Assembly: GCA_903879715.1 (NCBI GenBank)
Contig: CAIRMR010000133.1
Location: 1 to 38,114, forward strand
Source of the DNA: an uncultured Bacteroidales bacterium
GTDB lineage: Bacteria > Bacteroidota > Bacteroidia > Bacteroidales > UBA4417
Direction of reading: 5' to 3'
DNA: 38,114 bases
This document shows positions 429-20,895 of the stretch, piece after piece. Every line of letters starts with the position of its first letter. Position 1 is the stretch's first letter. The notes beneath the pieces were generated by a model that ran no database searches, was not told the DNA's origin, and saw only the letters and a list, made by a program, of their open reading frames with translations. Position numbers and translations under genes: made by a program.

Positions 429-3400
429 TTGAAAGAATTACAAGCAATCTGCATTTTAGTTGTACTAATCGCAACCTCAGCATTTGGAAGCAATAAGCCA
501 CTTGCACCGCTAAACTTACGGGTTAATTATGTTGCTGATCCTGTAGGTATTGACGATCCAACTCCGCGTTTTAGCTGGGAAGTAGCTGATACTGATCGCG
601 GAGATGTTCAAACAGCCTACGAAATTATTGTAGCTTTTAGTTTAAGCGATATTAATTCAAATAATGGAGATGTATGGTCGTCGGGCAAAGTAGTTTCAAG
701 CCGGCAGAACGGAGTTGTCTATAATGGGTCAACTTTATTATCGCAAAAACAGTATTGGTGGAAAGTAAGAACATTCGACAAAGACAATCAGCAAAGTGTC
801 TGGAGTAATGCAGCATCTTTCGAAACAGGATTACTTAACTCCTCAGATTGGAAGGCTTCATTTCTTGAAGGCACCTTTAAATTAGTGCGGAATGAATTTA
901 CACTTCCTGCAGGAAAAACCATAACCAAAGCCCGCGCGTATGTTACTTCCGATGGTTATTTCGAACTTCGGATAAACGGCAATAAAATCGGCGACCATTT
1001 CCTCGATCCACTTCCAACCGAAACAGGTAAATTATTACTGTATTCTACATTCGATATAACCAGTAATTTGGTTAATGGGAGCAATAATGCCGTTGGAATA
1101 ATGCTTGGAGGTTATGCTTTACAAAAACGTTCAAACAGTGTTAAAGTAATTTGTCAAATTGATATTTGGTTTTTCGATGGAACAACTCAAAGCATTGCTT
1201 CCAATGAAACATGGAAAGTATCATCGGCCGGCCCGGTTATTAGTCAACATATTTTTGATGGCGAAAACTATGATGCCCGCGCTGAATGTACAGATTGGGA
1301 TAATGCCGGATATAATCAATCCGGATGGGATACACCAATAGTTACAAATAATTTCCCGAAGGGATGGACTATAAATAACGGTGTCCTGGAGGTAAGAGAT
1401 GGCGGTGAAGGACTTATGACTTCAAATTTCAGCTCTAGTGATTATGTAATTGAGACGGACATAAAAATACTACAGACTTGTGCAGGAATAATATTCAGGG
1501 CTTCAAATACCGATAATTTATATATGTGGCAATTTAATCCCGGTGCAACAGGATTGAGACCTCACAAAAGAGTAGGTGGGACATATTCCCTGGTTGTTCC
1601 AAATATCGCAATTAGCCCTGCATTAGTTCTTAACCAGACTTATCATGTAAAGATTGAACTAAAAGGCAGTAATATTAAATCCTATATTGATGGTGTGTTA
1701 GTGAGTAATCTTACCGACAATACATTTTTAACCGGAACAATAGGTTTTAGAGAAGCTCTCGATGAACAATGCCAATTTGACAATCTTAAAGTAACAGACA
1801 ACAGCTTGGTTGTTTTTTTTGATGATTTTACTTCGTTATCAGATAATTGGCAAAAAACAAATACCTTATCACTAAAATCCCAGTTAAATCCAATAAAAAT
1901 TGATGAAGTAATTACACCCGTGGCAATATACAATCCGGTTGCCGGAACTTATGTGTTCGATATGGGTAAAAACATTAGTGGTTGGGCCGAACTTAACGTT
2001 CAGGGTATAGCGGGAACAAAAGTTACACTGCGCTTTGCCGAAAGAATTTTTCAGGATAAAAATATCAATAGGACATCCACAACAAATGGCCTTGAGGCTA
2101 AGGCTACTGACACCTATATACTCAAAGGCATAGGCACCGAAGTATGGGAACCTCGTTTTACTTACCATGGTTTCAGGTATGTAGAAGTAACCGGTTTCCC
2201 CGGAACGCCAACGATTAATTCAATAAAAGGAAAATTTTTTCATAGTCAGGTAACCAATACTGTTAATGAATTTAGTTGTTCAAATCCCGACCTTAATAAT
2301 ATCTGTAAAGCGTATAAATTAACTCAACTTGATAATTTAATGGGATTGCCGACCGACTGCAACCAGAGGGCAGAACGTGCAGGTTGGCTCGCCGATGCTA
2401 TGGTTACTTCGGAAGCTGCGATGACTTATTTCGATGCCAATTCATTTTACGAAAAATGGATGAATGATATGTTAGTAAACGAAATAATTGGACATGGAGG
2501 TGCCCTTTGTATTATTCCATCAGGTGGTGGAGGCGATGATGTTATTTGGGGATCTGCTGTTGTTTCTGTCCCCTGGGACTACTATACAATGACCGGTGAC
2601 TCAGTATTCTTATCTAAAATGTATCCGCGTTGTAAACGCTTTGTTGAATGGTATAAAGGTTTGGATGCGAATAATAATTTTTTATTTGAACCGGATATAG
2701 AAGGATTAAGTGAAAGTGGGTCGTTAATGACGGCATTCCAGTTTAATGAATGGAACCCTGTTGGAGGTAATGGCGATAATTTGAAACCATCCAAAAATTT
2801 CATGGGATCGCTTTACTACTATCGCTGTGCAAATCTTTTGGCAAAAATGGCCCAGACCTTAGGCGTTACTTCTGATTATAATAACTATTCTGCTTTAGCC
2901 AATAACATTAAAATTGCGATAAACAGCCAATTTTTAAAAACCAGTTATTACGACAATAATAAACAAACCGGTAACGCCTTAGCGATAGAATTTGGAATAG
3001 TTCCCCTGGCTTCTTATACTGCCGTGATAAATGGCTTTGCCTCTGATGTTAATCATAACGGTGATGTTCAGTTAAAGACCGGCTGTTTGGGTACTTATGC
3101 TTTAATGCGTGCTTTAGGGGATAATGGATTAAATGACTTAGCCTACAAGCTAGCCGCACGAAAAACATATCCAAGTTGGGGCTATATGCTTAATACCACT
3201 GATGCTCCCGGTACTTTTTGGGAACACTGGGACAATCAGAATTTATCGAAAAACCATATTTTTTTAGGCGGTTCTGTATCTACATGGTTATTTCATTATG
3301 TTGCTGGAATTAAGCCTTTAAAGCCAGGGTATAGCGAAATTCAATTCAAACCCGATGTTACCACGCAGCTTGATAGTGCCTCTGGTATTGTTTATTCTGT

Positions 3401-3929
3401 AAAAGGTGCTATTAGGTCAAGTTGGAAGAAGAAAAACGGGGAACTTTCATGGGATATAACCATACCGTCAAACACTTCCGGAATACTTTACATCCCCACA
3501 ATGGGTAAGAAAGATGCTGTAAAGATAACCGAAGGATCAACCATACTTTGGGATAATACTCTTAAAGATACGATTTCGGGACTTAAATATCTCAGAACAG
3601 AAGGCGATTTTCAGGTGTGGTCTGTCGGATCTGGCAAGTATCAAATAGTTGTCAATGATTTTTTCAGTAGTCTCTCTCCTTTCAGTAAGGTTTCCGAAGA
3701 AACGTTTGGGATATGGCCCAATCCCGCAAAAAACAGGATTACAATTGATGTTCAAAATCACGAAGCAAAGAGTATTCAAATTCTGGATACTGAAGGAAAA
3801 ATCATTTATTCGGATAATGAAAATTATAGTGGGAAGAAAACGATTAATTTATCCGTGTCCACTGGTGTTTACTTTGTAAAAGTACAGGGAGATGTTACGT
3901 TCGCGACTCAAAAATTGATAGTTGAATAA
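429..3929 (+). CDS. GH78 alpha-L-rhamnosidase with inserted jelly-roll-like domain and T9SS tail
   Basis: A 1166-residue secreted enzyme expected to remove terminal alpha-L-rhamnose from oligo- or polysaccharides outside the cell. In order: signal peptide (1-20), fibronectin/Ig-like domain (about 25-135), the GH78 N-terminal beta domain (about 140-310), an inserted segment (about 310-478) resembling a concanavalin-like/DUF1080-type fold (VIETDIKI, GIIFRASN, GTIGFR), the rhamnosidase beta domain (about 485-620), the (alpha/alpha)6 catalytic domain, a C-terminal beta domain, and a T9SS type A tail from about 1092 (WPNPAKNRITID). The family general acid fits E649 in DCNQRAERAGW and the base E932 in GTFWEHWD. 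The only usable start is TTG at 429; the frame is stopped just upstream and the next in-frame Met is about 220 residues in. The insertion makes it longer than a usual GH78. DNA is AT-rich compared with the GH106 block. Confidence 0.9.
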   Translation: MKELQAICILVVLIATSAFGSNKPLAPLNLRVNYVADPVGIDDPTPRFSWEVADTDRGDVQTAYEIIVAFSLSDINSNNGDVWSSGKVVSSRQNGVVYNGSTLLSQKQYWWKVRTFDKDNQQSVWSNAASFETGLLNSSDWKASFLEGTFKLVRNEFTLPAGKTITKARAYVTSDGYFELRINGNKIGDHFLDPLPTETGKLLLYSTFDITSNLVNGSNNAVGIMLGGYALQKRSNSVKVICQIDIWFFDGTTQSIASNETWKVSSAGPVISQHIFDGENYDARAECTDWDNAGYNQSGWDTPIVTNNFPKGWTINNGVLEVRDGGEGLMTSNFSSSDYVIETDIKILQTCAGIIFRASNTDNLYMWQFNPGATGLRPHKRVGGTYSLVVPNIAISPALVLNQTYHVKIELKGSNIKSYIDGVLVSNLTDNTFLTGTIGFREALDEQCQFDNLKVTDNSLVVFFDDFTSLSDNWQKTNTLSLKSQLNPIKIDEVITPVAIYNPVAGTYVFDMGKNISGWAELNVQGIAGTKVTLRFAERIFQDKNINRTSTTNGLEAKATDTYILKGIGTEVWEPRFTYHGFRYVEVTGFPGTPTINSIKGKFFHSQVTNTVNEFSCSNPDLNNICKAYKLTQLDNLMGLPTDCNQRAERAGWLADAMVTSEAAMTYFDANSFYEKWMNDMLVNEIIGHGGALCIIPSGGGGDDVIWGSAVVSVPWDYYTMTGDSVFLSKMYPRCKRFVEWYKGLDANNNFLFEPDIEGLSESGSLMTAFQFNEWNPVGGNGDNLKPSKNFMGSLYYYRCANLLAKMAQTLGVTSDYNNYSALANNIKIAINSQFLKTSYYDNNKQTGNALAIEFGIVPLASYTAVINGFASDVNHNGDVQLKTGCLGTYALMRALGDNGLNDLAYKLAARKTYPSWGYMLNTTDAPGTFWEHWDNQNLSKNHIFLGGSVSTWLFHYVAGIKPLKPGYSEIQFKPDVTTQLDSASGIVYSVKGAIRSSWKKKNGELSWDITIPSNTSGILYIPTMGKKDAVKITEGSTILWDNTLKDTISGLKYLRTEGDFQVWSVGSGKYQIVVNDFFSSLSPFSKVSEETFGIWPNPAKNRITIDVQNHEAKSIQILDTEGKIIYSDNENYSGKKTINLSVSTGVYFVKVQGDVTFATQKLIVE

Positions 3930-4024: not shown

Positions 4025-7000
4025 ATGAAGAAGAAATTACTATTGTTTTGGATGTTCATGTTTACAGTTATTTTTGGGTTGAAGGCTCAAGTAAACAGTT
4101 CACGAGCTGATATGGCTACTTATCGCATGCCGGCTGAGGATTATGGCATTGTATTATCGCCAAGCAAAGAAGGTGAAAAGTATTTTGAGTGGGATGGTAA
4201 TGGCATTAGAGAGGGAATCGTAAATAAAGTTGGAAATACATATTATTTATTTTATGATGGTGCCGCTCACCACACTGGTGTCTGTAATCTTAACGACCCT
4301 GAGCGTCATTTATGGCGGGCAATGTTGGCTAAAAGTACCGATTTGATAACATGGGAAAAGTTAGGTGTAAAACTCTGGTGCGGTTACGATACAGATCCTG
4401 CTTCTAATGGCGATGTATATAAGGATTTTGGCTCTGCCTCATCACCGTGGGCATATTTTAGCATAGATGAGGATTATTGGTATTTATTTTATTTAGGTGC
4501 TGAAGGTTCATCTCCGAGTGGCACTGATGTAGGTACACCAGGTTATTATTATTCAACCTTAGTTGCCAAAGCACTTACAAAAGGCATAACCGGTATTGAG
4601 GGCGAGTGGCAACAACTAAACAGATTAACCGGCAACGCAAAGGCTGTTGCTCTTTGGCAGAAACCTGCAACTTGTTCACCTGGTTCGGTGATTGAAAACC
4701 CACTTTGGAAAGTTGATCCTGTTAATAATAAACGTTATATGATGTTTGTAACCCGTGGTGGGCAAACTCATATTGCGAGAAGTAATAAATTGGATGGAAT
4801 TCATAAATGGGATGAAACTCCCGACATAAACGGTTGGGATTTTGATTATCTGATACTAGATAAAACAGGGAATACTTCACCCGAAAATGCTACCATCTAC
4901 TACGACGAAAAGACAAAATGGTATTTTTTATTTACCAACCAATTTAGCATGAATTATACTTACACTGAGTGTAATATTGTTTATTGGAGTAAAGACCCTA
5001 ATTCATGGAATCCTAAAAACTCGGCATTAATAACAGACCCCTCAACCACTAAAAATGGTTGGGCGATTGGAGCAATTGGGATGCCATCTGTTGCAAAAAT
5101 TGATGATAATACACTTGGAATAATTTATGATGCTCAGGAAGGATCATTAAAAAACAATATAGGAAGAAAAATTGCATTAGCCTATTGGAAAATACCTTCG
5201 CTTGACGACAATGGCATTCCTGGAGTATGTAATGGAAGTTTCGAAACACCAGATGCTACAGAAGGTAATGTTGGTTTGCCTGGAGTTTTAAAGACCCCTG
5301 TTACATCAGGTTGGGTGTTTGATAATAATAGCTTTATTATGAAAAATGGTTGTGCGTACGGACAGCCAGATGCAACAGATAGAGTACAATGTGGTGCATT
5401 TCAAAATGGAGGTGCCATTTATCAAAATATCAATTTAGATGCAGGTAATTATGTGCTTATTTTATCGGCTGCTCAAAGGGCTGGAAATGCTATTAATATA
5501 CCAATAACGGTAACTTGTGATGGAACGGTAGTTGGCACATTGACAGCTAATTCACAAACTGGATACTCAATCTTAGCTACTCCAAGTTTTGTTATAACTG
5601 CAGGTATTCATAAAATTCAATTATCAGCACAAGGGAGCGATTTTACTGTTTTTTTTGACAATGTTCAATTAGTTTTAGAGTCAGCTTTGCCTACTACCTT
5701 GTTAAACTCAAGTTTTGAGACTCCAGATGTGGCTGGTGGTTCAAATTTTGTATTAAGACCCACAGGTGGTACATGGCTATTCGAAGGTGGAGCTGCAATT
5801 TCAAACAATTCAAGTTCTTATGGACCACCAGCTGCCATTTATGGAAGTCAGTGTGTGCATTTTCAAGGGGCAGGTTCAGCAATTTCCCAGGTCGTATATT
5901 TAACGGCAGGTAATTATAAACTATATTTTCAGGGAGCACAACGATCAGGAAATGCTTCTCCACTGCCTGTACAGGTAACAATTGACGGAAACTTAGTAGA
6001 AACATTAACGCCATCTACAACGGGTAGTTATAGTAGCTTGAGTACCAGTAGTTTTGCCATTACCGCAGGTTATCATACTATTCGGCTCGAAGCTGTTACT
6101 ACACCTGGCGATGTAACTGTCTTTATTGATAATGTATGCTTAGTGCCAGCAACTACAAATCCAACTTGGGATAGTCGACCAGCTGCAACATTTACGCCGA
6201 TTTATAGTCAGGTATTCAATACAAGCTGGGATAATGCGAAATTTTATGGTCAATGGGAAACTATTGATGCCAACGCTTTTACCGCAGCGGATATCGCCGC
6301 CGGTTACTTGCAGTTTGAATGGACCGCTAAACGTGTTATGTGCTCTAAAAACGTATATGCTTCGCCTTATACTCTCGAAACTGAAATTGAATACCCGGCG
6401 GAAGTCAGCAGCCGTGCCGGTGTGGTTATAAGAGTTGCGCCAGCAAGTAATAATGAAATTATACAGGAACCTGCCTTAGGTGATCCCGGTTTTAACAGCG
6501 AAGGTATCGCTTTCTATCCAACCGATGATGGCTCTAAAATGATTGTGCAGTTTACCGGCATTTATGTTGCAAATGCTACACCGGTTACACGGATTTCAGT
6601 TCCGAAACCAGTTGATATTGCAAGTTTTAGAGACCGCGCATTATTAAGAATAGAAGATTTTGGAACGTCAATCTATGTGTTTTATAATAACGCGCCTTTA
6701 TGCAGAATTGATCTCACAAACTTAATTGACGGCATATACACTTCAGGTACAGTTTACGATTCAGATATGCAGGTTGCCGGAACTTTTTCAGGCATGGAGG
6801 TTGCCGTTTCAGGCAGGGTTGCTATTGCTCAACGGAATTCGGCATTCAGGCTTTACAGTGCGCTTATAAAGACCGCTGTTCCATGGGATAATCGTCCTGC
6901 AACTAATTTTGTAACAAAGTACAGCCAGGCATTCAATACAGTTTGGGACAACACAAAATTTTACGATCAGTGGGAAACTCTTCTTGCAAACGCTTTTACC

Positions 7001-8389
7001 GCAGCGGATATAGCCGCCGGTTATTTGCAGTTTGAATGGTCCGCTAAACGTGTCATGTGTTCAAAAAGTTCATATGCTTCGCCCTATGTTATGGAATCAG
7101 ATATTGATTACTCTACAGGCGGCAGCCAGGGCGGGGTTGTAATCAGAGTTGCAGCAACAAATATTGAAGACATCCAGGAACCTGCATCCGGTGATCCGGG
7201 ATACAACAGGGAAGGTATAGCCTTCTATCCAAATGTCGATGGCTCCTCAATGACAGTTCAATTTACAGGCGCTATAAATGGCAGTTCAACACCGGTAACA
7301 CGGATTTCAGTTTCTAAACCATACGGAGTAGCAAGCCTGAGAAACAGAGGAACATTAAGGGTGGAAGATTATGGATCATCAGTTTATGTGTTTTATAATG
7401 ATGCTCCTTATATCCGGATTAACCTCGGCGGTCTAACCGGCGCAAACTATACTTCGGGTACCGTTTATAATGCTGCTATGCAGGTTGAAGGAACCTTCAC
7501 AGCTATGGAAGTTGCAGTTTTGGGTAAGGTGGCTGTAGCTCAAAGGACCGCTGATTTCAGACTTTACAGCGTGAATATAAAAGTGCAGTCAAATGTACCT
7601 GATGCACCAACTACTGTTTCGGCTGTTGCAGGAAATAAACAAGCTAGCGTTTCTTTTTCGGCACCGCTGTATGATGGCGGAATTGCTATTACCGGATACA
7701 CTGTAACTTCGAGCCCGGGCAACTTTAAACAAACTGGAACTACAAGCCCTTTGGTTGTAATACGATTAGCCAACGGCACAGCTTATACATTTACAGTAGT
7801 TGCCACCAACGAATTAGGCAATAGTTTACCAAGTGAAGTGTCAAATTCAGTAACTCCTGCCACAGTTCCCGATGCACCAACAGACGTAATTGCTGCTGCA
7901 CGTAATATGGAAGCTTTGGTAGCGTTTACAGCACCGGTGGTTAATGGTGGTTCGGAAGTACTCAGCTACACTGTAAATTCGACTCCGGGCAATTTCTCAC
8001 AAACCGGAACTGCCAGTCCGTTAGTTTTAACAGGATTAGACAATGGAACCGCTTATACTTTTACCGTTGTTGCCACAAACCTGGTTGGAAACAGCATCGA
8101 AAGCGCGATTTCAAACGAAGTTACACCTGTTGACAATACAGCTTTAAAGGAAAATCAGCACTCAGCAATCAGGGTTTATCAATCAGGTTCTGCACTTGTT
8201 GTGGACCTGAATGGCTTGAGCGGCTTACAAAACGTTTACCTGACCGATGTTCTGGGAAAACCAGTTGTTTCCAGGAAAGCTTATGGCGGCGAAAAACTTG
8301 AGATTTCAAACCGGTTGTTAAGTGGTGTTTATTTTGTCAGAGTTCAGGGAACAAATAAAACCCAAGTGACTAAAGTCATTGTAAAATAG
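4025..8389 (+). CDS. Multidomain T9SS protein: five-bladed beta-propeller hydrolase-like domain plus repeated binding domains
   Basis: A 1454-residue surface protein. In order: signal peptide (1-21); a beta-propeller of the GH43/GH32/GH117 type (about 30-400; blade motifs such as NTYYLFYDGA, YWYLFYLGAE, KWYFLFTNQF); two tandem galactose-binding/DUF642-like domains (about 402-554 and 559-709), each opening with GSFETPD or SSFETPD; two copies of an unknown ~230-residue domain (about 717-950 and 953-1186); two fibronectin type III domains (about 1191-1280 and 1281-1369); and a T9SS-like tail (about 1379-1454). I cannot place catalytic residues with certainty, so the activity is unknown beyond glycosidase-like. 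The AT-rich first part (a sampled 60-base line at 5401 is 30 % GC) changes to a richer second part (line at 7141, 48 %) near base 6170, suggesting domain shuffling. It shares its unknown domain with the 35532 protein. Confidence 0.8.
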   Translation: MKKKLLLFWMFMFTVIFGLKAQVNSSRADMATYRMPAEDYGIVLSPSKEGEKYFEWDGNGIREGIVNKVGNTYYLFYDGAAHHTGVCNLNDPERHLWRAMLAKSTDLITWEKLGVKLWCGYDTDPASNGDVYKDFGSASSPWAYFSIDEDYWYLFYLGAEGSSPSGTDVGTPGYYYSTLVAKALTKGITGIEGEWQQLNRLTGNAKAVALWQKPATCSPGSVIENPLWKVDPVNNKRYMMFVTRGGQTHIARSNKLDGIHKWDETPDINGWDFDYLILDKTGNTSPENATIYYDEKTKWYFLFTNQFSMNYTYTECNIVYWSKDPNSWNPKNSALITDPSTTKNGWAIGAIGMPSVAKIDDNTLGIIYDAQEGSLKNNIGRKIALAYWKIPSLDDNGIPGVCNGSFETPDATEGNVGLPGVLKTPVTSGWVFDNNSFIMKNGCAYGQPDATDRVQCGAFQNGGAIYQNINLDAGNYVLILSAAQRAGNAINIPITVTCDGTVVGTLTANSQTGYSILATPSFVITAGIHKIQLSAQGSDFTVFFDNVQLVLESALPTTLLNSSFETPDVAGGSNFVLRPTGGTWLFEGGAAISNNSSSYGPPAAIYGSQCVHFQGAGSAISQVVYLTAGNYKLYFQGAQRSGNASPLPVQVTIDGNLVETLTPSTTGSYSSLSTSSFAITAGYHTIRLEAVTTPGDVTVFIDNVCLVPATTNPTWDSRPAATFTPIYSQVFNTSWDNAKFYGQWETIDANAFTAADIAAGYLQFEWTAKRVMCSKNVYASPYTLETEIEYPAEVSSRAGVVIRVAPASNNEIIQEPALGDPGFNSEGIAFYPTDDGSKMIVQFTGIYVANATPVTRISVPKPVDIASFRDRALLRIEDFGTSIYVFYNNAPLCRIDLTNLIDGIYTSGTVYDSDMQVAGTFSGMEVAVSGRVAIAQRNSAFRLYSALIKTAVPWDNRPATNFVTKYSQAFNTVWDNTKFYDQWETLLANAFTAADIAAGYLQFEWSAKRVMCSKSSYASPYVMESDIDYSTGGSQGGVVIRVAATNIEDIQEPASGDPGYNREGIAFYPNVDGSSMTVQFTGAINGSSTPVTRISVSKPYGVASLRNRGTLRVEDYGSSVYVFYNDAPYIRINLGGLTGANYTSGTVYNAAMQVEGTFTAMEVAVLGKVAVAQRTADFRLYSVNIKVQSNVPDAPTTVSAVAGNKQASVSFSAPLYDGGIAITGYTVTSSPGNFKQTGTTSPLVVIRLANGTAYTFTVVATNELGNSLPSEVSNSVTPATVPDAPTDVIAAARNMEALVAFTAPVVNGGSEVLSYTVNSTPGNFSQTGTASPLVLTGLDNGTAYTFTVVATNLVGNSIESAISNEVTPVDNTALKENQHSAIRVYQSGSALVVDLNGLSGLQNVYLTDVLGKPVVSRKAYGGEKLEISNRLLSGVYFVRVQGTNKTQVTKVIVK
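6174..7581 (+). repeat. Tandem duplication encoding the unknown ~230-residue domain
   Basis: Two consecutive ~700-bp units (about 6174-6880 and 6882-7581) inside the propeller gene encode paralogous domains. Shared landmarks are FNTxWDNxKFYxQWET, RVMCSK, GVVIRVA, QEPAxGDPG, EGIAFYP, PVTRISV and YVFYN. Parts of the DNA are about 90 % identical (6277-6340 against 6989-7052), implying recent duplication or gene conversion. A third, more diverged copy is at about 35635-36330. Confidence 0.85.
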
Positions 8390-8473
8390 GATTCTGAGAT
8401 GGAAATACTGATTCGGTTCCATACTGTATTAAATACCGGAGAAAGTATAATGGATTGAAATGAGGTGGCTGTT
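8274..8473 (+). repeat. Near-identical 200-bp gene-end repeat, copy B
   Basis: This is the partner of bases 1-200: the end of the propeller gene, its stop, the non-coding tail and the left arm of the terminator. The loop and right arm of the two terminators have diverged by small changes while remaining able to pair. Confidence 0.9.
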
Positions 8474-8510
8474 TTTTTAGTATTGATACTTTAAAAACAG
8501 CCACTTTTTT
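8465..8510 (+). terminator. Rho-independent terminator after the propeller gene
   Basis: GTGGCTGTTTTT (8465-8476) pairs perfectly with AAAAACAGCCAC (8493-8504) around a 16-nt loop, and six T residues follow. It is the homologue of the terminator at 189-236, with the right arm changed in step with the left arm. Confidence 0.85.
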
Positions 8511-8828: not shown

Positions 8829-11800
8829 ATGAGTAGATTCTTTTTCGCCAGATTATTTATATCCTACGGATTAAGCGGCAGGACGTTTGTGCTGCTTTGC
8901 TTAATTATCAGCCCCATCTTTATTACTGTCGCCTTCAGTCAAAAAAGTACTGTCGAATCAATCCTTGACCGCTGCAACATAACAGTGAATAGCCCGAAAA
9001 ATGCAGAAAACGGCTTTTTTACCATGGATCATTCACCGGTTATGGGAAATGGATGCCTGATGATTACTACAGGGAGCACATCCAACAGTCTTACATTCTA
9101 CCTGGGTAAAACAGATTTCTGGCGCGATAAATGCAATGAGCCGGAAAACGATGGCTGGCAAAGTGCCAATGTGCTTCCTGGCAGGCTGAAGATAAGTTTT
9201 CCCACTCTGGAAGGCAGTTCCTTTAATCAAACCCAGAATCTCCGGCTTGCAGAAGTTCTTACGACTATGACCAAAGGAATTTCATCAGTCACTGTCCGTT
9301 CAGTTACACCGCATCCGGCCGATAATTACCTTATTCAGGAAGTAACAAATACGGGAAAACAAATTGTAGATATGATCGTCGAAACCAGTACTGATCAGTA
9401 CCGCATCCCGACCAATCCATTTGAAATTCAGGCAGGAAAAAGCAGTAACGGTCAACAGGTGATGTGGGTAACCCGCAAAACAAATTCTCCACCGACACAT
9501 GATGACTATGGAAGCCGGGAATTCAGAATGTGGGCTGCAATCGGAACACGGATATTAGGGAAGCCCGGTCGTATTTCCGTAAAAAGCAATTGGAGTTACA
9601 AAGCAGGGGATGGGGAGGTAAGAGTGACTTCAACAGTCGGCCTTTTGCCGGGCGAAAAACGATATATTGTCACAAAAGTCCATTCCACAGGCATCCCGGT
9701 AACAATGAATCCTGCCAATCCACTGCCTCCTGTTTTAAAAGAACTGAGTACCCTGGATCCTTCATTTGTTGAAAAGCTTATTAGCAACCACCACGACTGG
9801 TGGAAGGAATATTGGAACAAATCATACATTGATTTAAAAGAAGAATTACTGGTTGAGCGGGTCTATTACGGTGCATTGTATGTGTTTGCATGTGCCAACA
9901 AACCAGGCCAATGGCCTGCCGGATGCAACGGCTGGCCAATAAATGATGAAGTTCCCTGGGGAGGTGATTACCACTGGAATTACAACAATCAGGCAGTCTA
10001 TTATGGTGCCTTTTCTTCAAACCGGATAGAACTTACAGAGACATACGACCGGACTGTAAATGAGGCAAATATCTTCAGCCTCCGCCATGCACAGAAATTA
10101 GGCGTTCCCGGTACAGTCTTCTTTGTGGCAACTGCCCCTGGTCATTTGAATGAAGCTCAAACCATCGGCCAGCGCACCCATGCTATCGAAGCAGCATTGA
10201 ATCAGATTAATCATTGGTATTATACTTTTGACATGGAATGGATGAAAAGCAATTACTCATTTCTGAAAGATGTAGCCAATTATTGGGATTTCGATCTGCA
10301 AAAAAACAGAGAATCACTTCCAAATGGAAACTACAGGTATGTTGTGGTTAACAGTGCACCCATGGAAGGAGCTGATAAAGATAAATTTAACGGAATTACC
10401 GGAATTGCTTTTCTGAAACGGTTTTATAAAGCTATGATTGACATTACAAACGAATTGAATGCAAATGGCTATAATATCGGCAAAAATGAAAAAGATATCA
10501 TGTTGTGGTCTGATTTTTTGTCGCATATGAGTGATTATCCTAAAAGCTTTGCTTACGGAAGAAAAGTGTTTGCCTGGAGCGAAGAATCGTTAAATCCTTT
10601 ACTTACTGAACAGGATTGGATTCTTTATCCGGTCTTCCCGGCCGAGCAGGTTGGAATGGAATCAAACCGGGAATTACTGAATACGGCGAGGAATACCTTG
10701 ATAATTAAACCACAATATTATGTGGAGTGGTTGAACAACCCAACCCAGATTTTTTCGATTGCAGCCCGTTTGGCTCATCATCCACCAGAAATTCTGGAAA
10801 GGCTCAAATACTATTATAACGACCTGGGAGTAAGCAATTTTAAAAGCGGGGGAAGTAATACTGAAAACACTGCTATTATTGAATCGGTAAACAGTATGCT
10901 GATCCAAAGCCATGAAGGATTTATCCGTTTATTCCCCTGTTGGGATCTACCTGCTGCAGATTTCGTCCAATTAAGAACTGTTGGAGCTTTCCTGGTGAAT
11001 GCTTCAAAAAAGAATGGCGTTGTTCAACCACTAACTATTTATAGTGAAAAAGGGAAAATATGCAAAATACTGAATCCTTGGAAAGGAAGTAAGGTGATAG
11101 TGAAAGACATAAATGAACAGGTAATTCAAACGAAAATTGAAAATACCTATTCAGGTGAGTTGGCTTGTTTTGAAACAAAACCCGGAATGAAATACAGGAT
11201 ATCCGCAATTGAGCAACAGCCAGATTCATTGCCGTACTGGAACGCCGCTTTATACAAAAAAGTGATTACATCATCTGATTTTCAGCCATTCGAAAGCAAC
11301 GGACTGATGGATGCCAATAAATTTTCAGAAATGGCCAGACTGAGCAAGACTACTGCGGTATTAACTAACCAGATACCCAATTGGTCGGCTAATAAGCTCA
11401 CCGATGGAACACGAATTAATACCCGCGCCGGAAACCGGGGTTGGACAAGCAACCTGCATGAGAAACCTGATAATACGGAATGGGTACAAATCGACCTGGG
11501 CGAGTTGGCTGAAATAAAACGGATCGACCTTTGGCCACTTGATCATGGCGATGCATGGCAACATACCCATTGTACCGAGCCTTTTGTTAATTCGGGCGAA
11601 ATCGACCAGTCGTTCGATGGGTTTCCATATTCATTCACAATTTTAGTTTCAACCGATGGTGAGCAATGGAAAACAATAGCAGAAAAGGAGAATTATTATC
11701 CTCCTGCTTCCAATGTCGATGCAAGTGAGCAAAAACCAAAAGATATAACCGGCCCTGAAAGTTTCACCCTTAAAACTCAGTCTGTTCGTTATATTAAGGT

Positions 11801-11882
11801 AGTGGCCACAAAGCTTAGAAAAACCAGGTATTTTGAGAAATACGCCATGCAACTTGCAGAAATTGAGGTTGTACGGAACTAA
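8829..11882 (+). CDS. GH95-type glycosidase (alpha-L-fucosidase / alpha-L-galactosidase family) with C-terminal F5/8-type domain
   Basis: A 1017-residue secreted enzyme. The N-terminus is long, with a hydrophobic stretch about residues 19-37 ending AFSQ, so cleavage near residue 38 is likely. Residues about 45-300 form the GH95 N-terminal beta domain (SPVMGNGCLMITT). The (alpha/alpha)6 barrel follows, with the NxN motif WNYNNQ (N384 and N386), which in GH95 supports the catalytic water. The C-terminal beta domain contains IQSHEGFIRLFPCWD. Residues about 830-1017 resemble an F5/8-type C (CBM32-like) domain (WVQIDLGELAEIKRIDLWP). GH95 enzymes invert alpha-1,2-L-fucose or alpha-L-galactose linkages; which one applies here cannot be read off. 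There is no T9SS tail. It is flanked by an upstream terminator and a downstream broken gene, so it may be transcribed alone. Confidence 0.8.
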   Translation: MSRFFFARLFISYGLSGRTFVLLCLIISPIFITVAFSQKSTVESILDRCNITVNSPKNAENGFFTMDHSPVMGNGCLMITTGSTSNSLTFYLGKTDFWRDKCNEPENDGWQSANVLPGRLKISFPTLEGSSFNQTQNLRLAEVLTTMTKGISSVTVRSVTPHPADNYLIQEVTNTGKQIVDMIVETSTDQYRIPTNPFEIQAGKSSNGQQVMWVTRKTNSPPTHDDYGSREFRMWAAIGTRILGKPGRISVKSNWSYKAGDGEVRVTSTVGLLPGEKRYIVTKVHSTGIPVTMNPANPLPPVLKELSTLDPSFVEKLISNHHDWWKEYWNKSYIDLKEELLVERVYYGALYVFACANKPGQWPAGCNGWPINDEVPWGGDYHWNYNNQAVYYGAFSSNRIELTETYDRTVNEANIFSLRHAQKLGVPGTVFFVATAPGHLNEAQTIGQRTHAIEAALNQINHWYYTFDMEWMKSNYSFLKDVANYWDFDLQKNRESLPNGNYRYVVVNSAPMEGADKDKFNGITGIAFLKRFYKAMIDITNELNANGYNIGKNEKDIMLWSDFLSHMSDYPKSFAYGRKVFAWSEESLNPLLTEQDWILYPVFPAEQVGMESNRELLNTARNTLIIKPQYYVEWLNNPTQIFSIAARLAHHPPEILERLKYYYNDLGVSNFKSGGSNTENTAIIESVNSMLIQSHEGFIRLFPCWDLPAADFVQLRTVGAFLVNASKKNGVVQPLTIYSEKGKICKILNPWKGSKVIVKDINEQVIQTKIENTYSGELACFETKPGMKYRISAIEQQPDSLPYWNAALYKKVITSSDFQPFESNGLMDANKFSEMARLSKTTAVLTNQIPNWSANKLTDGTRINTRAGNRGWTSNLHEKPDNTEWVQIDLGELAEIKRIDLWPLDHGDAWQHTHCTEPFVNSGEIDQSFDGFPYSFTILVSTDGEQWKTIAEKENYYPPASNVDASEQKPKDITGPESFTLKTQSVRYIKVVATKLRKTRYFEKYAMQLAEIEVVRN

Positions 11883-12648: not shown

Positions 12649-13947
12649 TTATTTTAGAAACGCTGCACGCAGCTCTTCCACCTGTGCATCATTTATAGGT
12701 ACCATTTTCCCAAAATGTGCACTTAACACTATTGATTTTGCGCTGAATTCGGCTACTTCCAGCCGGTCGAATGTCTGAAGAAGCTTGTCCCCGGTTATAA
12801 CCACCGAATCTTTGCTTACAATGATTGCAGGATTCTGTAACGTTAACAGTTCAGGAATATGTGTGGTTTTCCGGAAATGAGCGCCAAAAGGCAATGTGGC
12901 TACATCCTGTAAAAAGATCCAGCTTTCGGGGATTGTCCTTACGTCAATAACACTGTTTGATACACCAAATGCCATTAAATATGGCGACTGGGTAAGTATT
13001 ATAGAATTTATACCCGGGTTTCGCTTATAAATCTCCTGGTGCAACCACGAAGAACGGCTTGGTACTTTACCAGGCTCTCTTTTCCCGTCTTTGATCTGAA
13101 CTATATCATTTTGGTGCAAATCCCATCGCGGCACGTTGGTAGGGGTTATCAGGAAGTCGTTATCCCTCCAGCGGGTTGATACGGTTCCATACGAACTGAG
13201 CATTAATCCATGGTCGCAGGCACGGTGTACGATGTTACAGATCTCGAGGCGCTTTTCACGCTCGTCCGAAGGATAAGAAACAGAATCCATTTCAGGCATT
13301 AGCATTGGCACCTGGTTATCGAACTCAGCTATCTGATCATCGGTTAAATACTGCACTTCGCCGAGAGAAGTGCCATACAAAATAGTGCGTGCACAGAACT
13401 CCAATGTTTCGAACCGCTGAAAAGCATCTACCAGGTCGATGCCGCCAAGCACAGTGCCATGGTTTTCCATTATAATGGCATCGAAGCCTTTTTTAAATTC
13501 GTCGGCTATTTTTACGCCCAGGGCAAAGCTTCCCGGTAATTCATAGGTCGCATACCCTATAGGTCCGCATATTTTTTTTGCCTGCACAATTACATTTGTA
13601 TCAGGAATTTGGCGAACAATACTGAATGAAACTAATGCCGGAGGATGTGCATGTATTACTGCTTTTATATCAGGCCGGCTTTTGTATATTGCTATATGAA
13701 AGGGGTATTCCGATGATGGTTTATGCGGACCTACGATGGTTCCATCGCTTTTTACACACATGATGTCCGAAGGCTTCAGGGAACCTTTGTCCACAGCTGA
13801 TGGTGTTACCCACACATCTCCGTTATCATCAATCATTGAAATATTCCCACCTGAGGTTGTAGTTAACCCACGTTGGTATATCCGGCTGATTATGATGGCT
13901 ATCTGGTCGCGGGGGTGCATAAGTTGCGTATCAAGTCTTTCGTTCAT
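12649..13947 (-). CDS. Tandem class II aldolase/adducin-domain protein (probable deoxysugar-1-phosphate aldolase)
   Basis: A 432-residue cytoplasmic protein with two class II aldolase folds (about 10-190 and 230-415). Class II aldolases such as FucA and RhaD split L-fuculose- or L-rhamnulose-1-phosphate into dihydroxyacetone phosphate and L-lactaldehyde using Zn bound by three His. Domain 1 keeps the expected residues: E80 (SSEYPFHIAIYK), H99 and H101 (VIHAHPP), H163 (MENHGT). Domain 2 aligns well (LHQEIYKRNPGINSI against FHIAIYKSRPDIKAV) but has Ser, Thr319, Ser321 and Asp380 at those positions, so it should bind no metal. Usual single-domain members are about 215-275 residues. It lies 267 bases downstream of the FGGY kinase on the same strand, which supports a rhamnose/fucose catabolic role. 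Substrate choice between rhamnulose- and fuculose-phosphate is open. Confidence 0.8.
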   Translation of the reverse strand: MNERLDTQLMHPRDQIAIIISRIYQRGLTTTSGGNISMIDDNGDVWVTPSAVDKGSLKPSDIMCVKSDGTIVGPHKPSSEYPFHIAIYKSRPDIKAVIHAHPPALVSFSIVRQIPDTNVIVQAKKICGPIGYATYELPGSFALGVKIADEFKKGFDAIIMENHGTVLGGIDLVDAFQRFETLEFCARTILYGTSLGEVQYLTDDQIAEFDNQVPMLMPEMDSVSYPSDEREKRLEICNIVHRACDHGLMLSSYGTVSTRWRDNDFLITPTNVPRWDLHQNDIVQIKDGKREPGKVPSRSSWLHQEIYKRNPGINSIILTQSPYLMAFGVSNSVIDVRTIPESWIFLQDVATLPFGAHFRKTTHIPELLTLQNPAIIVSKDSVVITGDKLLQTFDRLEVAEFSAKSIVLSAHFGKMVPINDAQVEELRAAFLK

Positions 13948-14214: not shown

Positions 14215-15576
14215 TTATTTAAAAGCCTCTATTTTCTTCAATCCCAGGTCCAGGATGGGTTCCGTGCCGGTGAATGCTTTATTCCAGATAGTCATAGCTG
14301 CACCAAAGGCTGTTGCATTGTCAACTTCCGAAGTATATATTGTTTTGCCAGGAAGCAGCGAGGCAAGTAACCTTAAAAATAAAATGTTGCGTGCAAATCC
14401 GCCGGTTACATATACTGATGTAGTAGTGTCGTTTTCAGGAATTACCAGTTTCAACGAATCCAAAGCAAGATTAGTAATATCAATAACCAACTGGTGATAG
14501 GCTTCTTCAGCAGAATTAAATGCTGATAAATCAACGGACAAATCAATATAATCGTCACTCAGGCTGTCTTTGAAAAAAATACGCTTGCAAAGCCGATCAT
14601 TTATGAATACTTCATTTGCTTCAACACTTTTATAATAATCGCTGTTTTTGCCAAAATGATCAGCAATTCGCTGTGAATTCACATCGTGGATATGACCCAT
14701 AAAAAGGCGCGAAGATTTTACCTGTTTCTGTCGTGTACTTATATAACAGAGCGAATCTTTACCGAGTTGTTCGGCAGTTAAAGGCTCATCGTTAAACGGA
14801 TTCATAAATATACACCAGGTGCCTGTTGAGATCAGAATAAAAGGCTTCGGACTACCCTTCAAATAAGGAACCAACGATGAGGAGCTGTCGTGAATACCAA
14901 TGCCGACCTGAATTTTCTGGTCATTTACGATCAGTTCTGTGGCTTCGTCGTTGGCAGCAGGCACAGGCAGCAGAATCTTCTCATTTTCGAGCCAGGCATG
15001 ATAGCAATTGTTGTCGAAATCCCACATGGCGGTATGGCAACCGATTGAGGTTAGCTCCGACGTAATTTGTTTACTTACCAGGAAGTAAAAATATTGCGGC
15101 AGATGCAGAATACTACTTACCCGGTTGTAGACTTCCGGTTTGTGTTTTTTAAGCCAAAGAATCTGCAGGCCCGAATTGAGCATACCCAAAGCCGGTGAAG
15201 CGGTTTTCCTGCTGAACTCTTCGATGCCGTCATATTTCCGGTAAAAACCATCTAAAACATCCTCGGGCATAGGTTTAAGATAGTTATATGCCGGTGTCAG
15301 CCGATTACCTTCTTTATCCAGGTAAATCAGTGTAGCCCCGTAAGTTGCAAAATTAACAGCCTTTAGACTGTATTCCTTACTCACTGAAAGCTGCCTGATT
15401 TCTTCTGAAATCCATGCTTCGACTAAGGGCAGGTCATCACATGAAAAGCCGTCTTCATCCATAATTTCAGCAATTTTCTGCTCTTTCTGGGATAGCAATT
15501 TTAAATGTTTGTCGAAAAGAAGTACTTTCTTATTGGTTTTCCCAATGTCGAAAATGGCAATAACATCCTGTTTCAT
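14215..15576 (-). CDS. FGGY-family carbohydrate kinase (rhamnulokinase/fuculokinase type)
   Basis: A 453-residue cytoplasmic kinase expected to phosphorylate a ketose, most plausibly L-rhamnulose or L-fuculose, at O-1 using ATP. Visible motifs are the N-terminal phosphate loop FDIGKTNKK (9-17), the catalytic aspartate D230 in GIGIHDSSSSL, the second phosphate motif STGTWCIFMNP, and the adenosine-motif region VTGGFARN towards the C-terminus. Length is normal for the family. It is the first gene of a minus-strand pair with the aldolase and is divergent from the AraC-family regulator. In Bacteroides thetaiotaomicron an AraC-type regulator (RhaR) likewise controls rhamnose genes, which supports rhamnose; the sequence alone does not exclude fucose. 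The leader contains a TACTTTTG element (15639-15646, minus strand), placing transcription start about 55-60 bases upstream of the ATG. Confidence 0.8.
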   Translation of the reverse strand: MKQDVIAIFDIGKTNKKVLLFDKHLKLLSQKEQKIAEIMDEDGFSCDDLPLVEAWISEEIRQLSVSKEYSLKAVNFATYGATLIYLDKEGNRLTPAYNYLKPMPEDVLDGFYRKYDGIEEFSRKTASPALGMLNSGLQILWLKKHKPEVYNRVSSILHLPQYFYFLVSKQITSELTSIGCHTAMWDFDNNCYHAWLENEKILLPVPAANDEATELIVNDQKIQVGIGIHDSSSSLVPYLKGSPKPFILISTGTWCIFMNPFNDEPLTAEQLGKDSLCYISTRQKQVKSSRLFMGHIHDVNSQRIADHFGKNSDYYKSVEANEVFINDRLCKRIFFKDSLSDDYIDLSVDLSAFNSAEEAYHQLVIDITNLALDSLKLVIPENDTTTSVYVTGGFARNILFLRLLASLLPGKTIYTSEVDNATAFGAAMTIWNKAFTGTEPILDLGLKKIEAFK

Positions 15577-16800: not shown

Positions 16801-19800
16801 ATGCACAGTCAATTCCCCAATTTCAGGATAATACTCTTTATCCCGGTTTTTCTAATCTTTCAATGTAATCTCTTCGGGCAGGCTGATAAACTTCACCCAC
16901 AGAGTTTTAATAACATTGGACTTGAGGGGGGATTGTCGAATCTATCTGTTTCATCTTTTTGTGAAGACAATCTGGGCTTTATTTGGGTAGGTACAGCCAG
17001 GGGGATTGATCGTTTTGATGGAAATTCTTTTGAACATTTTTTCTTTAATGATAAAGACACTAACTCTTTATATAATGATTTTATTACCAGCCTGGCTGTT
17101 AAAGATAAACAACTTTTTATCGGGACGAATAACGGTTTAAATAAATATGATATTGAAAAAGAAAAGATGCAGCGGGTGGGTTCAAACAAAACAAGCTATG
17201 CTTCTTTAACGGTATGGGGAAATGTTATTTATGGGGCACCGGCTTTTTCAGGACTTGAATATTACAATTCTCAAAAGAATTCGATGATCCGTCTTGAAAA
17301 AATCCCAAAAGATATATTGATCAATCAATTGATAGCCGATAAGGATAATGGCATATGGTGTTTGCCTGATAATCAGAATTATTTATTCCTATATAATCCG
17401 GAACTAAACAAACTGACAAAATATGAGCTGAATTTTGAACAAAATAAACCGGGCTCAAAGCGGTTGAATTGTGGCAAAATTATTGGAAATAACCTTTGGG
17501 TAGGATCAAATAACGGAATTCAGATCTTTGACATTGACCGTCGTAAATTTTTATCTGCCAGTGAACTTCCTGCTGCGATACATACACTTCTGAACATTGA
17601 AATCACAAGTATTGAAATTAATAAGGGCGTAGTTTGGATAGGCTCCAAAACAGACGGATTGTTTATTTATGATACAAAGTCCGGTCAAATCCAACAATAT
17701 AACAAAGACAATATAAATAACATTAGTTCATCCTTTATCCGCACAATTTTTGTGGACCGGAGTAACAATGTCTGGGTTGGAACTTTCGAATCCGGAATTG
17801 ATGTTTCATTTGAGCAGCGAAAAAATTTCAATTTTGATAATGTTTTGAATAAGTATATTGCCAAAAAGTTTGTCAATTGTATCGTTTCCGATAACAAGGA
17901 TCTTCTTTACCTGGGTACCAGGAATTATGGCCTGGTTATTTACAATAAAAAAACCAGGAAAATTGAAAATCTGACCCGGCAAAGCGGTTCGTTTTCATGC
18001 AATCATGTGCAAGCTATGTTTCTGGATTCACAGAATAAATTGTGGATCGGCACAGAAGAAAACCTGTATATCCTGAATACAGTCAGCAGGAAAATCAGCC
18101 TGGTTCATCTGCCGTTTAATATGTCTAACGATCAAAGCTATTTACAATACAGCGTAGGCTATAATGTTTTCGCTGAAACAAGCGATGGAATTATACTGGC
18201 CGGAACCGGTTCCAACGGGATTATTAAGTTCGGCTTAAACGGAACTTACCAGGCTCATATTAAAAAGATGGGAAACAATATCAACCAGATCATTCCGGTC
18301 GGAAATGGTAATTTTATAGTAAACGCCTATGGAAAGGGCGTTTACGAGTATAAAAGTGCTACTGATTTTGTTATTTCGTTAACAGATAAATCTAAGGCAG
18401 AATCAAATAAAACCAGCGAAGCTACCACCATATTCAAGGATGAATTTGGTACTGTGTGGATAGGATGTTTTAGATACGGGTTATTCAGTTATGATTTGCG
18501 TAACAAAACTGTAATGAACTATACGGTCAAAGATGGACTTCCGAGCAACGATGTAATAGGAATTACCGAAGACCAAAACCACCGACTTTGGCTAAGTACC
18601 TCCTATGGTTTATCTAATTTTGATAAAAAAAGTAAATTCATAAACTATTATCTCAATGAAGGAACCGGAAATCAACAATATCATCAGCGTGCCACCTTCA
18701 GGGAAGCAAATGGTACCATTTATTTCGGGGGGAATAACGGACTTACTTATTTTAATCCTAAATCCCTGGGAGATGAACCTGCGCAATCACCAAAGATTGT
18801 ATTAAAATCATTGAATATCTCGAACCAGAAAGTATATCCCGGCGATGATACAGAACTTTTAGAAACCAACCTTGCCTATACCCGCAAAATCAGACTTAAT
18901 CATAAATACCCGGTTTTCAGCATCGATTTTGTTGGCTTTGATTACATTGCTTCAAACAAGTTAAAATACGCGTATATTCTGGAAGGATTTAATAAGGATT
19001 GGGTGTATGAGCAAAACAGAACCCGTGCCAGCTTTTCCAACCTGGCCCCCGGCACGTATACCTTTAAAGTTAAGGCCCAGAATAACAATGGGATATGGTC
19101 GGAGCAGCCCGCTATACTTACTATCGAAATAGTAGCAGCCCCATGGGCAACATGGTGGGCATTTTTACTCTATTTAATTGCTGTAAGTGCTGCTTTGTTA
19201 TTTGTTTTTCGTATTACTCTCCGCTCGAAGTTGTATAAAAAAGAACTTGAAATTGAGCACAACGAACATTCACGTGAAAAAGAGATCAACGAAATGAAGA
19301 TCAGGTTTTTTACAAATATATCACATGAAATCAGGACACCTCTCACACTTATTTATGGCATCGCCGAGAAATTACCTACTGTTCCCTTAGCTGAATTAAA
19401 AAATTCACCCGTTTTAACCAGGCTTAAATACAATACGGAACGGCTGTTAAAGATGGTTAATCAGTTACTCATGTTTAAAAATCTGGAAAGTGATACACTG
19501 AACTTGTATATTGAAGACACTGACATAGTAAGTCTGACCCGATTGTATGTTGAACCGTTCATATTCCTGGCCGAAAGCAAGAACATCGGGATCGAGTTTA
19601 TTTTTCTGGTCGAGGACCTAATCATTCCATTAGATCGTGATAAATATGAAAAAATACTAAGCAACTTACTGGGAAATGCACTAAAATTCACTAATTACCA
19701 AGGTGTTATCAAGGTTATTGTTGATCGCAAATCTCAGGAAAAAGTAATAACAGAATACAATACCATCAATACTTCGTTACAAGGTAGAGAAATTGATTAC

Positions 19801-20895
19801 ATCGAAGTTAAGGTTAAGGATAATGGCATTGGAATACCCGAGCATGAACTCCCCGAAATTTTCGATCGCTACAAAAGGGTTGAGGGAAATATCTCAACCG
19901 GGCCTGATTATTCAGGCTCCGGAATAGGTTTAAATTTTACAAAACGTTTGGTTGAGTTGCACAAAGGTGCAATTAAAGCAGAGAGCAGCGAAGGGAAAGG
20001 CTCTACATTCTCCTTTGTGATCCCCATTTCATCCGAAATATACGAAAGCAAGGACTGGGTTAAAGAAAGCGGGAATGTTGAAAGCATAGTGTTTCCCGAA
20101 CAGGAATATTTAAAGGAAGAAAGGATTGTTGAAAGTTCGGTTAAAGTTATGATCGTAGAAGATGATACTGAACTTAATTCTTTTATCAGGGAAAGTCTGG
20201 GCGAATTTTACAAGGTAGTTTGTGCTTTTAACGGGGCAGAAGGATTAGCTTTGGCAAAAAGCCAATTGCCGGATTTAATTGTTGCCGACATTACTATGCC
20301 ATTGGTTGATGGCATAACCATGTGTCAGAATGTAAAAGAAGATGCGATGCTTTCGCATATCCCGGTTATATTGCTTACTGCCAAATCAGATATTGAAGAC
20401 CAGGTTTCAGGATACAAACATGGTGCCGATGCCTATGTGATTAAACCGTTTAATCTTAAATTACTTAAGAGCCAGATTGATGGATTAATAAAGGTGCGGA
20501 GGAAACTACAAAAGACTTTTCAGAACGGACTTGCTCCCAACCTCCAAAAAACCAATCTAAACCAGATCGATATCAATTTCCTGCAGAAAATGGAGATTGT
20601 AATTAAGGATAAGTATGTTCATTCAAACTTTTATATCGAAGAATTAGCGCAGGTGATGAACATGAGCCGATCGAGTTTCTACCGGAAATTTGTAAGCCTC
20701 ACCAAAATTACACCGAATGATTATTTGCGAAAATACCGCGTCAACAAATCAATTGACCTGATGAACCAGGGAGTCCGTAACCTGGGTGAGATCAGCGATT
20801 TGTGTGGATTCAGCACTCCCGGGAATTATTCGGTTGCCTTTAAAAAAGAGAAAGGGATCTCTCCAAAACAGTATCAGCTTTCTCAGGGGCAGTGA
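16801..20895 (+). CDS. Hybrid two-component system sensor/regulator (HTCS)
   Basis: A 1364-residue inner-membrane regulator that senses periplasmic oligosaccharides and controls PUL transcription. In order: signal peptide/anchor (1-27); two seven-bladed regulator-propeller arrays (about 35-690; blade motifs such as GFIWVGTARGI, NVWVGTFESG, HRLWLSTSYGL); a Y_Y_Y domain (about 700-780; KLKYAYILEGFNKDW, FSNLAPGTYTF); one membrane helix (about 783-804); HisKA with H842 in ITNISHE-type H-box (TNISHEIRTPL); HATPase (N box about 950-965, DNGIGIPEHE about 1007, GSGIGLNFTKRL about 1039); receiver domain (about 1116-1234) with phospho-acceptor D1163 in VADITMP; and AraC-type HTH (about 1265-1364; SRSSFYRKF). 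All catalytic residues look intact. It has its own promoter and lies directly upstream of the receptor region, the usual place for the PUL regulator. Confidence 0.95.
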   Translation: MHSQFPNFRIILFIPVFLIFQCNLFGQADKLHPQSFNNIGLEGGLSNLSVSSFCEDNLGFIWVGTARGIDRFDGNSFEHFFFNDKDTNSLYNDFITSLAVKDKQLFIGTNNGLNKYDIEKEKMQRVGSNKTSYASLTVWGNVIYGAPAFSGLEYYNSQKNSMIRLEKIPKDILINQLIADKDNGIWCLPDNQNYLFLYNPELNKLTKYELNFEQNKPGSKRLNCGKIIGNNLWVGSNNGIQIFDIDRRKFLSASELPAAIHTLLNIEITSIEINKGVVWIGSKTDGLFIYDTKSGQIQQYNKDNINNISSSFIRTIFVDRSNNVWVGTFESGIDVSFEQRKNFNFDNVLNKYIAKKFVNCIVSDNKDLLYLGTRNYGLVIYNKKTRKIENLTRQSGSFSCNHVQAMFLDSQNKLWIGTEENLYILNTVSRKISLVHLPFNMSNDQSYLQYSVGYNVFAETSDGIILAGTGSNGIIKFGLNGTYQAHIKKMGNNINQIIPVGNGNFIVNAYGKGVYEYKSATDFVISLTDKSKAESNKTSEATTIFKDEFGTVWIGCFRYGLFSYDLRNKTVMNYTVKDGLPSNDVIGITEDQNHRLWLSTSYGLSNFDKKSKFINYYLNEGTGNQQYHQRATFREANGTIYFGGNNGLTYFNPKSLGDEPAQSPKIVLKSLNISNQKVYPGDDTELLETNLAYTRKIRLNHKYPVFSIDFVGFDYIASNKLKYAYILEGFNKDWVYEQNRTRASFSNLAPGTYTFKVKAQNNNGIWSEQPAILTIEIVAAPWATWWAFLLYLIAVSAALLFVFRITLRSKLYKKELEIEHNEHSREKEINEMKIRFFTNISHEIRTPLTLIYGIAEKLPTVPLAELKNSPVLTRLKYNTERLLKMVNQLLMFKNLESDTLNLYIEDTDIVSLTRLYVEPFIFLAESKNIGIEFIFLVEDLIIPLDRDKYEKILSNLLGNALKFTNYQGVIKVIVDRKSQEKVITEYNTINTSLQGREIDYIEVKVKDNGIGIPEHELPEIFDRYKRVEGNISTGPDYSGSGIGLNFTKRLVELHKGAIKAESSEGKGSTFSFVIPISSEIYESKDWVKESGNVESIVFPEQEYLKEERIVESSVKVMIVEDDTELNSFIRESLGEFYKVVCAFNGAEGLALAKSQLPDLIVADITMPLVDGITMCQNVKEDAMLSHIPVILLTAKSDIEDQVSGYKHGADAYVIKPFNLKLLKSQIDGLIKVRRKLQKTFQNGLAPNLQKTNLNQIDINFLQKMEIVIKDKYVHSNFYIEELAQVMNMSRSSFYRKFVSLTKITPNDYLRKYRVNKSIDLMNQGVRNLGEISDLCGFSTPGNYSVAFKKEKGISPKQYQLSQGQ

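Follow-up and report, generated by a model that had tools for sequence, protein, structure and literature searches.

A repeated ConA-like module of secreted Bacteroidales proteins as a candidate new family of carbohydrate-binding modules

What is the domain that occurs three times in two secreted proteins encoded by one stretch of DNA from an uncultured Bacteroidales bacterium? The stretch analysed (“the window”) comprises the 38,114 nucleotides of contig CAIRMR010000133.1 (C133) of assembly GCA_903879715.1. A first-pass annotation had described a domain of about 230 residues present thrice in two of its proteins, and all three copies were confirmed, in open frames and where that annotation had placed them. 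The domain, here called D, is a module of about 235 residues. It is probably a non-catalytic accessory module with a concanavalin A (ConA)-like beta-sandwich, most likely glycan-binding, and in effect an unnamed family of carbohydrate-binding modules (CBM). The copies and their hosts were as follows (ORF, open reading frame; T9SS, type IX secretion system; contigs, genomes and loci carry C, G and L numbers):

6167-6877, + strand: D1, first tandem copy of the ConA-like module, in ORF 4025-8389
6884-7585, + strand: D2, second tandem copy, modelled by AlphaFold2, in ORF 4025-8389
35625-36326, + strand: D3, N-terminal copy in host protein 2, in the ORF from 35532 to the contig end
4025-8389, + strand: host protein 1 (1454 aa), with a propeller-like N-terminal domain, a CBM6-like stretch, D1, D2, fn3 and a T9SS sorting tail
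35532-38114, + strand: host protein 2 (861 aa, truncated by the contig end), with a signal-like N-terminus and an Ig-like segment (both by eye), D3 and an enzyme-like domain

The likeness of the three copies was beyond chance, because BLASTP gave E values of 4e-96 or better over the full length (4e-96 to 4e-108, nominal database of 1e8 letters). Mutual identities were 54.7-66.0% over 231-235 residues: 66% between D1 and D2, and 55-60% between D3 and either of them. In the window's own genome (6.07 Mb, 223 contigs), a protein search gave 13 places and a profile of 14 copies gave 14, a count of 13 copies and one 35-residue stub, versus the three noted within the window. These 13 copies lay on seven contigs (four on C70, three on C133, two on C134, and one each on C22, C217, C106 and C149); the C149 copy was truncated by the contig end, and that of C22 was short of a few residues, also at a contig end.

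Conservation was read from a 25-row alignment (A6), which excludes the cut C149 copy and the C22 stub; the 18-row analyses (tree, BLASTP and first hhalign) also exclude seven copies from the family of genome G139 other than those of G139 itself. Twenty-four columns were invariant among the 25 copies, and ten of these columns hold polar or charged residues. The invariant polar or aromatic positions were, in D2 numbering, R56, Y68, R88, Q98, N108, Q126, E161-D162, N172 and R221, and D42 and E209 were nearly invariant. The landmark RVMCSK, proposed in the first-pass annotation, held for its Arg (25 of 25 copies) and Ser (24 of 25) but not for its Cys, which was present in 14 of 25 and hence is no family feature.

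The AlphaFold2 model of D2 and a fold search with it gave the ConA-like lectin/glucanase fold, a two-sheet antiparallel jelly-roll beta-sandwich, in agreement with the earlier guess of a concanavalin/LamG-like jelly-roll. Fold neighbours of known function included sugar binders. Among virus structures (BFVD), 103 entries matched at E<=0.001, most of them phage tail proteins or proteins without a name; these were uninformative (the top rows reached, at best, a query-based template modelling score of 0.33-0.53).

D occurred in different protein contexts. Host protein 1 carried a CBM6-like stretch (about 5369-5656; Pfam 25.2 bits, below the cut-off of 28.9), two fn3 stretches (Pfam, the best from 7601) and a T9SS tail (8207-8386; NCBIfam 34.4 bits, cut-off 23), while its N-terminal propeller-like domain had no match in Pfam. 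The label “propeller” given to this domain in the first pass has a single support, a 32% identical D-less homologue (L020 13417-14463, contig C106) which matched GH32N above cut-off (27.9 bits, cut-off 22.1) and GH43 just below it (31.8 bits, cut-off 32.2). Homologues of host protein 2 in L014 and L015 ran on into CBM6, PA14 and a T9SS tail, and T9SS sorting tails were found on the complete D hosts scanned. Within the chains read, D adjoined Ig-like, fn3 or further D domains in long secreted proteins, with four copies in a C70 chain cut by the contig end. Three copies of D occupy residues 495-1201 of a complete 1,481-residue frame from genome G810 (L058), which also has two Big_2 domains, two fn3 domains and a T9SS tail; no catalytic domain is recognised in this chain, since what remains of it is a pair of similar N-terminal modules, each about 140 residues long.

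BLASTP among the hosts revealed close relatives with and without D. A D-bearing protein of C134 was 67% identical over 646 residues to a near neighbour without D, and one of C106 shared 69% identity over 298 residues with two D-less neighbours; a C149 protein, 66% identical to that of L014 over 1063 residues, had another N-terminal segment in the place of D. The segment following D was common, together with D, to the C106 host and other hosts, but their alignments ended soon past it, save for 30-35% matches reaching somewhat further; by these alignments, the enzyme-like domain of the C106 host is of a different type from those of the other hosts, with distant kinship at most. As far as sequence comparison goes, D is an optional module, with several kinds of secreted host, D-less paralogues of two hosts and a replacement segment in one. 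A CBM is a module within a carbohydrate-active enzyme; D was found in chains with CBM6 and PA14 and inside glycosidase clusters, and the adjoining enzyme-like domain had no family above cut-off. The idea of a CBM, already put forward in the first pass, is supported, and is strengthened by the hosts with and without D and by the three-D chain without recognised catalytic domain; the sugar binding itself is what we infer.

A secreted, T9SS-tailed protein with one to four D modules would hold its polysaccharide through a conserved patch formed by the invariant polar and aromatic positions of D. D may in this way keep the secreted enzyme, or the three-D protein in which no enzyme is recognised, on the polysaccharide, where an attached enzyme-like domain, if present, would work on the held chains; several copies of D would give higher avidity.

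Three side observations concern the hosts. A further N-terminal module, starting VNxWEF or KNSWEF and without Pfam match, was present in L058 (residues 24-164 and 347-485, ahead of D), in the N-terminal part of the L021 450-4115 frame and, in the place of D, in C149. The D frame at L036 9097-10365 (genome G037) stops shortly after its enzyme-like domain begins. At L017 460-564 (contig C22), the 35-residue stub of the D N-terminus lies directly ahead of a propeller-like domain and is apparently a deletion relic.

Searches by sequence placed D in no described family. Pfam and NCBIfam gave nothing above cut-off for the whole host proteins or the 14 D copies, and three profile searches of PDB sequences with D gave no match at E<=10. 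The first-pass remark that no described CBM family could be recognised held in these three collections, and the hidden Markov model search proposed there, in its Pfam part, returned no clear CBM or DUF match. Three weak leads were rejected: ThioSDhTetH of NCBIfam (E 0.00075 for the whole host protein 1 and 0.0095 for D2, but 18.9 and 15.3 bits versus a cut-off of 300), DUF3150 of Pfam (E 0.1 and 0.25, under cut-off) and ParC (one member, E 0.036, a weak or chance lead). No paper recognised as describing D was found in the open-licence literature, in which there was no domain name to search by. D is accordingly named a candidate new CBM family, set apart from families with Pfam or NCBIfam models or PDB sequences only.

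Profile comparisons (hhalign), run first with 18 D copies and later with 25, covered the following sets taken from these genomes: PF06439 (five rows; L044, with a stop, excluded), DUF1961 (three rows; the partial L049 excluded), CBM6 (four), PA14 (three) and an insert of a GH78 protein alone. Reversed controls were 0.08-0.31% throughout, and other settings gave 0.03-0.17% for the jelly-roll sets. CBM6, a jelly-roll of another superfamily, was rejected as a relative although it gave the highest value of these sets, 2.9% (reversed control 0.31%). The GH78 insert, which by eye looks similar to D, rose from 0.38% (18 copies) to 1.62% (25 copies; E 0.031, reversed control 0.08%) and was not counted as a relative of D because this is above control yet far from significant. 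A value of 96% for D versus an enzyme-like set was discarded, as one row still contained D residues (28 aligned columns).

Among the closest fold matches of D was YesU of Bacillus subtilis (1oq1; 10% identity to D), with ERGIC-53 rows tied within 1 Z unit. YesU, which we take to be DUF1961 (PF09224), differs from D in standing alone, whereas D is a module of secreted proteins; the profile comparison stayed below 1%, and PF09224 had no matches at E<=0.01 in the genome with 13 D copies, though the control matched in Bacillus subtilis. The YesU gene is reported to lie beside a rhamnogalacturonan acetylesterase gene, and its product to bind fucosylated glycans by array and surface plasmon resonance (PMC6120924). 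This glycan binding is, in our analysis, a precedent for the fold and not for membership of D. CBM66 (4b1m, Bacillus subtilis), whose ligand is fructan, is about 70 residues shorter (161 versus 234 for D) and was not among the matches of D in the PDB sequence searches. With the “3-keto-disaccharide hydrolase” domains of PF06439, D shares, by eye, a similar strand pattern around GGVVIR; hhalign gave 0.44% (reversed control 0.21%), and a PF06439 search of the genome found six places, none of them a D copy. Bac_rhamnosid_N (PF08531), presumably a CBM67-type domain, a known type of L-rhamnose-binding module, was detected by Pfam in the GH78 of the window but matched none of the 14 D copies at E<=10. 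A recent parallel, by description alone, is the mannan-specific CBM112 from Bacteroides GH26, in which a domain of a Bacteroidota locus that had no assignment proved to be a CBM (PMC13357471).

The genes around the two hosts, assigned by Pfam, were:

432-3926, + strand: GH78 alpha-L-rhamnosidase carrying a PF06439 domain as an insert, and a T9SS tail
8829-11879, + strand: GH95-family glycosidase with an F5/8 type C domain
12649-13947, - strand: class II aldolase domain protein
14215-15576, - strand: FGGY sugar kinase, with 51% identity to the L057 kinase that neighbours rhaA and rhaT
16801-20892, + strand: hybrid two-component sensor/regulator
23188-26313, + strand: TonB-dependent SusC-like transporter (Plug, CarbopepD_reg_2)
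28909-30696, + strand: GH78-type protein
30770-34048, + strand: GH106 alpha-L-rhamnosidase (E 4.4e-223)
34180-35532, + strand: GH43 with CBM6

The PF06439-type domain of the GH78 protein (window 1251-1793, residues 274-454, E 9.6e-13) overlaps the end of the Bac_rhamnosid_N match.

With tblastn probes for GH106, GH78, RhaA, RhaT, the kinase and GH95, a rhamnosidase or rhaA/rhaT was found in eight of 16 D loci (the window, C106, L015, G139, G013 and three of G810), that is, in eight of the 13 loci of at least 10 kb, the other three loci being contigs under 5.2 kb. About six of these positive loci are independent, because that of G013 is orthologous to the window locus and those of G139 and one of G810 look alike. 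At L057, RhaT, RhaA and the kinase come after the D protein. GH106 and GH78 each had 11 matched stretches in the window's genome; since these families are not scarce there, and D lies in glycosidase clusters anyway, the rhamnose link is treated as a lead, from which we weakly infer that the ligand contains L-rhamnose or another 6-deoxyhexose.

The large enzyme-like domain beside D3 (about 36624-37841, + strand) had relatives in L014, L015, L018, L019, L021 and L037. The window copy had no Pfam match at E<=1, and a PDB profile search gave one chance-level match (E 0.49). Two relatives matched Glyco_hydro_99 below the cut-off of 33 (L018 13954-16077, 28.3 bits; C149, 23.6 bits), as did a neighbour protein, L057 1252-4581 (23.1 bits, sub-threshold), for which kinship to the enzyme-like domain is not implied. 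The predicted structure was uninformative (pLDDT 31, pTM 0.27). The domain may belong to an unassigned glycoside hydrolase family.

Several of the results weigh against a glycan-binding module linked with rhamnose. The hhalign values for CBM6, PF06439, DUF1961 and PA14 were all below 3%, so that profile comparison with these sets tied D to none of the known carbohydrate-binding families; confidence in the D2 model was low at residues 21-60 and 91-110 (10-residue means of 53-65), which include W30, R56, Q98 and N108; the best fold matches included enzymes (GH16 glucanases, carrageenases and alginate lyases); and five of the 13 long loci (C134, C217, G037, G804 and G802) had no rhamnose gene by the same tblastn test, C134 bearing GH92 and GH2, which points to a glycan other than the rhamnose type. 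The enzymes among the fold matches would also fit a cryptic enzyme, in which a non-GH16 catalytic centre on the ConA-like fold, for instance of a lyase or hydrolase, complements the attached domain; the invariant E161, D162, R56, R88 and R221 with the nearly invariant D42 and E209 could form such a centre, and PF06439, a family named for an enzyme, sits inside the GH78 of the window. We nevertheless consider an enzyme improbable: the GH16 catalytic motif, of the form E-x-D-x(1,2)-E, was found in none of the 25 copies, strict or loose; up to four D per chain and related hosts with and without D would be unusual for a catalytic unit; and in the model E161 and D162 are adjacent at a strand end, a poor geometry for a catalytic pair. 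The conserved residues could rather form a binding site, or, less likely, a catalytic centre of another kind. Two outcomes had been named beforehand as refuting the first-pass reading, a clear match to an existing CBM or DUF with known function and an enzymatic fold with a catalytic pair, and neither appeared: no clear match to a CBM or DUF was obtained in the collections searched, and the 25 copies have no GH16 motif.

D may also be thought of as a structural spacer or a protein-protein contact domain which binds no glycan and serves to position enzymes, either at the surface or within a complex. Its Ig-like, fn3 and D neighbours in long chains and the post-D segment shared by C106 and other hosts fit this, and a spacer role in loci of Bacteroidota is reported for DUF1735 (PMC11216935). 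Such a role is unlikely for D, as the 24 columns invariant throughout the 25 copies, with their ten polar or charged positions, exceed the needs of a spacer, and sugar binders are among the fold neighbours whose function is known. There is likewise only a small chance that D binds glycans as a member of an existing CAZy CBM family without Pfam model, and so is not new. Not all CBM families are known to have Pfam models, but many have solved members, and D found no PDB sequence in the three profile searches. CBM numbers stood at 112 by May 2026 (PMC13357471).

The D family looks rare and patchy, and among the sampled genomes all full-length copies belong to a single order, Bacteroidales. Profile searches found D in two of 16 genomes of the same genus and in four of 393 of the order sample, one of the latter through 64 residues only (G130, E 3.4e-4), a match treated as chance; the phylum and class samples each gave one of 395, in both cases the window's own genome. 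Four of 28 genomes from the family of the carrier G139 had D, one of them holding five copies. These carriage rates are rough, because at most seven candidates were scored per genome in the large samples, which overlap and cover part of GTDB. A scan of a contig collection found two loci, from a Bacteroidales bacterium (apparently the same as G013:C501) and a Paludibacter sp.; no D relative was confirmed among 26 pattern matches in viral contigs, and none was found in plasmids.

The tree built from 18 copies had 15 inner branches, of which seven were well supported and seven were left open. D2 grouped with the third C70 copy (99/98), the first two C70 copies together (95/97) and D3 with C134a (100/99); of the three Paludibacter copies, two paired (100/98). 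These groupings imply that D was duplicated within genomes and stands on different hosts. The dN/dS ratio was 0.12-0.51 in 11 chosen pairs (synonymous distances reached 1.9, so the larger ones are rough), which indicates purifying selection on D.

A fuller reading of the glycan-binding module is possible but doubtful: D would found a CBM family for L-rhamnose-containing polysaccharide, target unassigned, perhaps GH99-like, enzymes to it, build enzyme-free glycan traps when in several copies (L058), and have expanded to 13 copies by within-genome shuffling while most sampled sister species lack it. A named binding module with a candidate ligand would aid annotation of the hosts, whose enzyme-like domains have no family above cut-off, and D would add to the modules linked with rhamnose-containing glycans. 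D-bearing and D-less relatives in one genome offer a natural experiment on the role of the module for a secreted enzyme. The general understanding of such systems would not be altered by this.

The window also contained traces of repeats. Positions 1-220 were 95% identical in DNA sequence to 8274-8492; the contig starts inside a paralogue of the 4025-8389 gene, at its 3' end, and C70 begins with the same tail (93-94% identical). The tails shared by the two contigs suggest that such genes formed a tandem array which the assembly broke up. Positions 313-434 were 85% identical to 35416-35537, so that the junction of the GH43 gene end with the D3 gene start recurs a short way ahead of the GH78 gene, which may be a relic of rearrangement. 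A 68-base repeat (243-310 and 23472-23539, 87% identical) lay upstream of the GH78 gene and at the TonB-dependent transporter gene.

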